This document shows positions 13,797 through 39,550 of a stretch of 64,000 nucleotides of DNA, piece after piece. This DNA is from Rikenellaceae bacterium (lineage in GTDB: Bacteria > Bacteroidota > Bacteroidia > Bacteroidales > Rikenellaceae), in NCBI GenBank assembly GCA_015060005.1, contig SUZI01000001.1, positions 434,001 through 498,000 on the forward strand, in the 5' to 3' direction. The translations under genes were made by a program, and so were the position numbers. The notes beneath the pieces were generated by a model, which ran no database searches, was not told the DNA's origin, and worked only from the letters and a program-made list of their open reading frames with translations. Positions within the stretch are counted from its first letter, which is position 1. Every line of letters begins with the position of its first letter.

Positions 13797-13819
13797 CCTG
13801 CAGGTCAAAAATCTAAAAT

Positions 13820-14003
13820 GCAAAGGCAGGTCTTCTGACTTATCCCCCTGTCGCGCCTTCCCGGTTTTACCCAGTGGCAAAGAGTGCGACAGCCTTCGAT
13901 TCCGAAGCCGGAATGGGACTTACAGCAACAGGTATTGTTACGGATTTACACCGTATTTCCTTTTCACCTCGTTGACCGCAGCGGGTCGCAGAGGAACCAT
14001 TTG
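13820..14003 (-). ncRNA. Cobalamin (adenosylcobalamin-type) riboswitch
   Basis: Read on the minus strand the region contains the B12 box 'AAGTCAGAAGACCTGCCT' (plus coordinates 13824-13841), preceded by 'GGGAAGGCG', 'GCCACTGGG', and an upstream 'GGTGAAAAGGAA' plus 'GGTGTAAATCCGTAAC' segment. These are the conserved blocks of the cobalamin riboswitch in the correct order. It sits between its own promoter and the four-gene surface B12 uptake operon. Excess cobalamin is therefore expected to shut down the operon. Confidence 0.96.
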
Positions 14004-14009
14004 CGAGTG

Positions 14010-14040
14010 CAAAATTATCCATAATTTCTGAAATTGCAAA
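14010..14040 (-). promoter_or_regulatory. Promoter of the B12 uptake operon
   Basis: On the minus strand, TTTG (plus 14037-14040) and TAATTTTG (plus 14010-14017) are spaced by 19 nt, an exact consensus match. Transcription would begin near 14003, directly at the 5' edge of the riboswitch. Confidence 0.85.
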
Positions 14041-34731: not shown

Positions 34732-38755
<4,024 letters not shown>

Positions 38756-38785
38756 ACAAAGAAAATAGACACTAATTTAGACATC

Positions 38786-38826
38786 AATAATCCGTTGCGG
38801 CACGCTCCACAACGGATTATTTCTTA
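38786..38826 (+). terminator. Terminator after the beta-galactosidase gene
   Basis: A 12-bp perfect stem, AATAATCCGTTG (38786-38797) with CAACGGATTATT (38810-38821), is followed by a short T-rich tract (TCTTAAT). Confidence 0.88.
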
Positions 38827-38887
38827 ATATCAAACGTCTTATCATCAAAAAAATATATATATAAATCTCTTCGTATAATTTTTTTGC

Positions 38888-38895
38888 TAACTTTG
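38888..38895 (+). promoter_or_regulatory. Probable -7 box for the structured RNA / 98-residue membrane protein transcript
   Basis: TAACTTTG fits the TAnnTTTG consensus. No good -33 TTTG is found at the expected distance, so confidence is limited. It lies immediately before the structured region. Confidence 0.5.
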
Positions 38896-39132
38896 TAGTG
38901 CCGTAGGTGCCATACCTATGGCAGGACATAATTGGTGAAAGTGTTTCTCATTAATCCCGAATAGGAATCTGGAAAATTCATTGCTGGGGATGAATAGTGG
39001 CACTCATCATCTGTATTGGTATGTGTGTACATACTCATACTATACGGGTGTGGGGTCTTGTGTCAGTTTATTCCAGCAAAGGTATTCCAGAACCTCTATT
39101 CGAATAAACAGAGAACTGCTCCACACTTTCTG
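38896..39132 (+). ncRNA. Strongly structured RNA of unknown class
   Basis: Five nested long-range helices can be read: 38937-38944/39123-39130 (GAAAGTGT/ACACTTTC), 38945-38949/39111-39115, 38960-38964/39096-39100, 38969-38974/39085-39090 (CTGGAA/TTCCAG) and 38981-38987/39073-39079 (TTGCTGG/CCAGCAA). Two hairpins cap the rod (GATGA/TCATC at 38989-39008; GTATGT/ACATAC at 39019-39034). A 10-bp hairpin precedes it at 38899-38923. There is no coding frame, and a -7 box lies just upstream. No strong terminator follows, so it could be a 5' leader of the 98-residue membrane protein or an independent 6S-like RNA. I do not recognise the family. Confidence 0.55.
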
Positions 39133-39187
39133 TTACTATTAATATAATCATTGAGGGGCAGAATGATATAGTTCAAATTATATTATT

Positions 39188-39484
39188 ATGGAACAAAGTC
39201 AAAACAACCCTAACGCACAACATGGTATGCAACAGACCATTATCGTGCAAAAAGAGAGCTCCAACGGTGTGGGCACTGCAGGATTTGTTCTCTCTCTAAT
39301 CTCCCTATGTCTATCGTTTATTCCTGGCATAGGCTGGTTTATCTGGTTTTTAGGTCTTATTCTATCTTTTATTGGCATATTTGGAAACCCTAAAGGGTTA
39401 GCAATCACAGGGTTTATTATTTCGTTAATAGATTTAATAATTTTAATAGCTATCTTCGGAACTCTTGCATCAATCCTTCCATAA
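39188..39484 (+). CDS. Small membrane protein, DUF4190-like
   Basis: The 98-residue protein has a polar, Asn/Gln-rich N-terminus (about 1-30) and two hydrophobic segments ('GTAGFVLSLISLCLSFIPGIGWFIWFLGLILSFIG' may form two closely packed helices; 'LAITGFIISLIDLIILIAIFGTLASI' a third). Gly and Pro between helices resemble DUF4190-type proteins. Function is unknown. It is AT-richer than its neighbours. It is preceded by a 290-nt leader that includes the structured RNA, which suggests post-transcriptional control. Confidence 0.65.
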   Translation: MEQSQNNPNAQHGMQQTIIVQKESSNGVGTAGFVLSLISLCLSFIPGIGWFIWFLGLILSFIGIFGNPKGLAITGFIISLIDLIILIAIFGTLASILP

Positions 39485-39490
39485 ATTTAC

Positions 39491-39550
39491 AAAGGGGTTG
39501 TCCAACAAGTACGTTGTGACAGCCCCTTTGTGTAGAAGTTATATAACAAG
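39491..39550 (+). repeat. Hairpin terminator plus GTAGAAGTTATATAACAAG motif (repeat family copy)
   Basis: AAAGGGGTTGTC (39491-39502) pairs with GACAGCCCCTTT (39518-39529), with a G-T step, and terminates the small membrane protein gene. It is followed by GTAGAAGTTATATAACAAG (39532-39550). The same arrangement recurs at 53825-53887, 59291-59357 and, on the other strand, 20154-20211. Confidence 0.7.

Follow-up and report, generated by a model that had tools for sequence, protein, structure and literature searches.

The question of the RNA upstream of a small membrane protein gene

What is the large structured RNA encoded at positions 38896–39132 of this Rikenellaceae genome segment, and does it act on its own or on the gene that follows it? 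The window, by which we mean the whole stretch of DNA analyzed, is 64,000 nt long. An initial annotation made from its letters had described here a rod of five nested helices matching no recognizable RNA class, either an independent regulatory RNA (the rod recalling 6S) or the cis-acting leader of a 98-residue membrane protein. That description was right yet understated, as both a multi-copy family and a second, competing conserved fold were missed.

The predicted fold energy of 38896–39132 is −86 kcal/mol. Its 200 dinucleotide-shuffled versions average −59.4 kcal/mol (sd 4.5; z −5.95) and not one is as stable, and this, together with the covariation of the helices, bears out the view that a chance origin is unlikely. 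All five complementary helices were found in place, as was the preceding hairpin, GCCGTAGGTGCCATACCTATGGC (38900–38922), which is variable in sequence and present in most copies of the alignment. The −7 promoter box that had been proposed is TAACTTTG, of the Bacteroidetes type TAnnTTTG, at 38888–38895, from which the transcript is expected to start at about 38899–38903 (these and all further features of this copy lie on the + strand). There is indeed no notable reading frame within the RNA; frames there are only small and overlapping, and a coding element was rejected. The proposed end at 39132 had to be moved: the RNA extends to a tail hairpin, ATCATT-GAGGGGCAG-AATGAT (39147–39167), recognized from sequence and alignment, whose loop pairs back to 39116–39122. 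Farther upstream, after a GH2/LacZ-like gene, a hairpin AATCCGTTG..CAACGGATT with a T-rich tail (38793–38830, +) is likely the terminator separating this gene from the promoter of the RNA.

Family size and distribution

The RNA is a member of an uncatalogued family that is present several times in a genome and is spread among the gut bacteria of the Bacteroidales. When 38896–39132 was used as a BLAST query, five places in its own genome were found, and 102 of 200 relatives also gave matches. With a covariance model trained on 45 copies, the count in its own genome rose to 8, and a search of the order Bacteroidales detected copies in 81 of 295 genomes, representing 55 of 184 genera. Weaker matches to the model occur in other genomes of the class Bacteroidia. 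Bacteroides xylanisolvens XB1A, B. acidifaciens, and B. heparinolyticus have 4–11 copies per genome (E ≤ 0.001), counts that include a few weak or opposite-strand matches. Named genomes found by a pattern scan were mainly Rikenellaceae (Alistipes, Tidjanibacter, Rikenella), plus the same three Bacteroides species. Divergent copies are shorter (150–165 nt), and the sampling of copies is skewed, as the searches favor the long type. Phage and plasmid collections contain few copies.

The term "unrecognised" remains appropriate. At gathering score, Rfam 15 has no family for the window copy or for ten homologue loci, and over 38700–39500, with the limit relaxed to E = 10, it gave only matches at the level of chance, to families that are unrelated. 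The Bacteroides copies and the divergent copies were also unmatched by Rfam, and the class-level homologues were unmatched up to E = 0.01. No matching prior description was found in the open PubMed Central literature; a fragment may already stand under a number in wider motif surveys. The sole Rfam match in the window is a cobalamin riboswitch at 13808–14017 (−), with 82.4 bits.

The rod and its tail pseudoknot

The first of the two folds (fold A) consists of the annotated helices and the tail pairing. In 61 homologous sequences 91.3% of its cells are paired and double changes occur at 24 of 37 pairs; there are 344 double-changed cells, compared with 111 after shuffling and at most 86 with slid partners, and the covariation score is 0.382 versus 0.152. 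The check for compensatory changes suggested by the annotation thus found the five helices conserved and covarying, also in a separate count over 111 sequences of the family (z of 38 for H2, 26 for H4, 23 for H3, and 13 for S2), statistics in which kinship among the aligned copies is only partly controlled.

The rod is closed by P1, in which GAAAGTGT (38937–38944) pairs with ACACTTTC (39123–39130); 98% of the cells are paired, and in divergent copies the two strands have covaried to AAAAGCGT/ACGCTTTT. It continues with H1b, TTCTC (38945–38949) with GAGAA (39111–39115; alignment columns 25–201, z 16.7), and with H2, GAATAG (38959–38964) with CTATTC (39096–39101), where z reaches 38 and all 6 pairs show double changes. 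In H4, TTGCTGG (38981–38987) pairs with CCAGCAA (39073–39079); z reaches 26 and double changes are found at 7 of 7 pairs, while only 76% of the cells are paired in a part where the alignment is poor. The apical domain contains P3, formed by CACTC (39001–39005) and the GGGTG that opens the mid segment, GTGTGGGG (39048–39055). The arms H2–H4 have an energy of −30 kcal/mol with their real partners and −15 kcal/mol with swapped ones; of the two negative controls in this comparison, one contained H2 and hence is no control, and the other behaves as a control. A hairpin P0 (GAUGAAAG/CUUUUAUC) has support in the long type only and was excluded from the core model.

The annotation had drawn its five helices as one nested rod. 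They are all present; H3, however, may be something other than a rod helix. Its strands, TCTGGA (38968–38973) and TCCAGA (39086–39091; columns 52–177, z 23), are located in the loops of two small hairpins, which covary as well (columns 44–58 and 174–183), and they connect these loops, perhaps as a kissing pair. The second of these hairpins is Pc, AGGT-ATTCCAGA-ACCT (39080–39095; columns 174–183, z 9.3).

Beyond the rod, S2 pairs CTGCTCC (39116–39122) with GGGGCAG in the tail loop (39155–39161), the consensus being NNGCTCC with GGAGCNN. Double changes were counted at 6 of its 7 pairs, and the pairing has z values of −13.1 and −8.8. S2 is a pseudoknot that crosses P1, and its tail partner is located beyond the U-rich tract TTTCTGTT (39127–39134). 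As S2 covaries and lies past this tract, the read-through RNA must matter. The same pairing speaks against a simple terminator hairpin, a candidate that P1 and the U tract alone would fit.

A competing hairpin before the U-rich tract

In the second fold (fold B), which also covaries, the mid segment at 39048–39055 pairs with 39119–39126 and a long hairpin results directly before the U-rich tract. The mid segment GTGTGGGG is invariant and complementary to CTCCACAC (39119–39126), and this helix, Palt, draws on ACAC, which P1 also needs, and on CTCC, which the tail also needs. The first bases of the mid segment belong to P3 in fold A, and the whole segment to Palt in fold B. At least 6 of 7 Palt pairs can form in 159 of 166 copies, and compensatory variants include GCGTGAGG/CCTCACGC, GCGTGAGA/TCTCACGC, TCGTGGG/TTCACGA, CCGTGGA/TTTCACGG, and ACGTGGG/CCCACGT. 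Comparisons of nearest relatives gave 10 compensatory double changes, versus 3 and 1 with slid partners, and swapping strands between copies weakened the pairing in both sequence types (z −7.5 and −6.7). P3 also constrains the mid segment, so that part of the Palt signal could be mimicked by P3.

The hairpin is carried onward by Pb (GTTTAT/ATAAAC; in the window GTTTATTC at 39066–39073 with GAATAAAC at 39102–39109), for which pair counts across copies give at least 8 pairs in most of them. Its z is −8.8 in the short type and only −2.0 in the long type, whose sequence is nearly invariant. An alternative local hairpin, P2, encloses the 5′ arm, with ATCCC (38954–38958) pairing with GGGAT (38987–38991); the real partners (ATCC../..GGAT) are better than swapped ones, with z of −6.6 and −5.8. 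In 156 of 159 copies, the 12 nt that follow the 3′ strand include 7–11 T; this U tract is weaker in the window copy than in most.

Fold B cannot coexist with P1 or with the local P3 pairing, and it is unlikely to form alongside the full H2–H4 arms. In 165 of 166 copies, nearest-neighbor energies (pseudoknots not included) favor fold A over Palt, which costs a median of 14.7 kcal/mol relative to fold A, and 13 kcal/mol in the window copy. With fold A favored thermodynamically, fold B must therefore be kinetic, factor-assisted, or an intermediate. Terminators are usually far shorter than the Palt-Pb-Pc hairpin, which a scan for simple terminators did not list.

Promoter, spacing, and downstream genes

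The linkage of the RNA to a promoter and to a gene is a property of the family. Of 135 distinct copies, 129 have a TAnnTTTG box no more than 75 nt upstream of the core, and the best downstream frame is a same-strand gene in 113 of the 125 copies with enough sequence. Start codons, assigned by a simple open-frame rule, peak 45–60 nt after the core, with medians of 55 and 57 nt in two sets; in the window the gene for the predicted membrane protein (98 aa, 39188–39484) starts 57 nt after the end of the core. By position, spacing, and covariation the structured domain thus occupies the 5′ UTR of the downstream gene, of which it is a putative regulator. For comparison, 5′ UTRs in B. thetaiotaomicron have a median length of 32 nt (PMC7366714).

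The proposal of a cis-acting leader therefore holds at the level of the family, with a promoter before the RNA and a same-strand gene at a near-fixed distance after it. For the window gene itself, which has no match in Pfam or NCBIfam, it is favored by homologues in two other genomes of the same genus, whose operon has the same RNA as its leader. In other relatives the same core, up to 91% identical over 209 nt, precedes an unrelated lipoprotein gene; cores and genes have thus been reshuffled.

The downstream genes are mutually unrelated, and mostly encode lipoproteins, outer-membrane proteins, or secreted proteins. When a crude N-terminal rule is applied, some 70% of the products look like lipoproteins, secreted proteins, or membrane proteins, and the Pfam matches are diverse (BspA-type leucine-rich repeats, outer-membrane barrels, BACON, lipocalin-like, fimbrillin-like, and restriction proteins). 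A ligand candidate was sought in this gene set and none was found, the genes pointing to no single signal. Two family members lead proteins that match HSDR_N and resemble N-terminal domains of type I restriction R subunits, unlike the surface-protein majority; judging from sequence, the two loci are likely L059 3504–4571 (−) and L119 6339–7397 (+). Another copy in the genome of the window (contig C12, 18188–18375) leads a Cys-rich protein of 241 aa (L154 1738–2460), which is related, below the cut-off, to the Cys-Xaa-Xaa-Xaa repeat radical-SAM target family TIGR04117.

Relation to known RNAs

The nearest parallels in the same bacteria are the DUF805 (RF03081) and DUF805b (RF02914) motifs, which are also multi-copy in Bacteroidales and stand in cis-regulatory positions before diverse genes. 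They differ in being motifs of 35–68 nt with other conserved sequence and structure, and neither matches the window copy. In some divergent copies (L184, L161, G227, G141, and G264) these motifs occur 20–130 nt downstream of the RNA and not on it. At L184 (1501–1767) a DUF805 motif starts right after the tail-loop region and a second sits between two genes; at L161 (C11:132580–132815, −, in the genome of the window) a DUF805/DUF805b motif is found just downstream of the divergent family member, in the same leader. As the DUF805 motifs are distinct and usually stand alone, we file the family as a new cis-regulatory, riboswitch-like RNA family, its riboswitch status being putative. Bacteroidales-1 (RF01693) and other motifs of the phylum Bacteroidetes are conserved structured RNAs as well (PMC2864571), but their Rfam models do not match the new RNA.

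Metabolite riboswitches and attenuators with strand-exchange platforms (for example SAM, cobalamin, and T-box) share with it a long 5′ leader, a pseudoknot, several loci per genome, and mutually exclusive helices, one of which is followed by a U tract. No sequence or Rfam match is shared, however, the genes of the new RNA do not belong to one pathway, and its competing hairpin encloses much of its own conserved domain. The rod-like fold and the long-range closing helix are reminiscent of 6S RNA and 6S-Flavo (RF01685), which differ from the new RNA in that the latter is multi-copy, constantly linked to a gene, provided with a tail pseudoknot, and without an Rfam match. The 6S covariance model did not match at gathering score, nor up to E = 10 over 38700–39500, and a 6S-like small RNA was rejected on the copy number (8 in the genome), the gene linkage (113/125), and the missing 6S match.

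Proposed mechanism and alternatives

We lean toward the view that the RNA is the mRNA 5′ leader of a new multi-copy cis-regulatory family of the Bacteroidia that works by strand exchange. The 5′ segment and the tail would compete with the mid segment for one 3′ segment. When the 3′ segment GAAUAAAC..CUCCACACUUUC pairs with the 5′ segment, the long rod (P1, H1b, H2, H3, H4, P3) would form and dock to the tail hairpin through S2. When it pairs instead with the mid segment GUGUGGGG..GUUUAUUC, the Palt-Pb-Pc hairpin followed by the U-rich tract would result, and the 5′ arm would fold locally as P2. Most likely, fold B would end transcription and fold A, locked by S2, would permit read-through into the gene; a ligand, a protein, or a growth condition acting on the rod would decide between the two.

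The main rival, which we consider rather unlikely, is post-transcriptional control, in which the docked tail hairpin, 20–30 nt before the start codon, would set translation initiation or mRNA stability and the U tract would be merely a linker or a part of the pseudoknot. The bacteria concerned hardly use Shine-Dalgarno pairing. S2 covaries and keeps a near-constant place between core and start (S2 strand at about 18–27 nt, ATG at 45–60 nt), and the thermodynamic preference for fold A would suit such a leader; what it leaves unexplained is the covariation of the mid and 3′ strands and the position of the U tract, immediately next to the Palt hairpin in almost every copy.

It is improbable that the RNA acts on its own as a small RNA, either 6S-like or trans-acting, whose end is formed by P1 or Palt with the U tract and whose downstream gene is transcribed separately. 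Such an RNA would have its own promoter, a rod shape, and a U tract, all of which are seen here, but it would not account for the constant distance at which a same-strand gene follows most of the 125 copies, for a covarying tail pairing that needs transcription past the U tract, for up to 11 copies per genome, or for the lack of an Rfam 6S match. More improbable still is a structured element, mobile or repeated, that is propagated by recombination and lacks a regulatory role. Copies up to 91% identical (209 nt) do precede unrelated genes in different genomes of the same genus, and such copies differ in their 5′ and tail hairpins. Against this stand the strong covariation across divergent families, the constant order and spacing of promoter, RNA, and gene, and the rarity in phage and plasmid collections; in an unsystematic look no element ends, target-site duplications, or transposase were noticed. 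A selfish element was rejected, as nothing was noticed beyond recombination between copies.

To return to strand exchange in a leader, its conserved parts, namely a leader of about 270 nt (shorter in divergent copies), complementary loops, a tail pseudoknot, and a three-way exchange of strands, might be those of an orphan riboswitch. It is quite possible, if still short of probable, that this is an unnamed, probably class-wide family of such riboswitches in the Bacteroidia, through which one signal would coordinate scattered genes for surface and envelope proteins.

Implications

Bacteroidales are dominant gut bacteria, and their surface proteins govern nutrition and contact with the host. To our knowledge, few cis-regulatory RNAs of this order have been described. 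The present family is directly testable, because culturable Bacteroides species carry 4–11 copies of it. A covarying multi-copy element found in many genera, with two competing folds, leads to the hypothesis that one signal may act through one RNA module on many surface genes.
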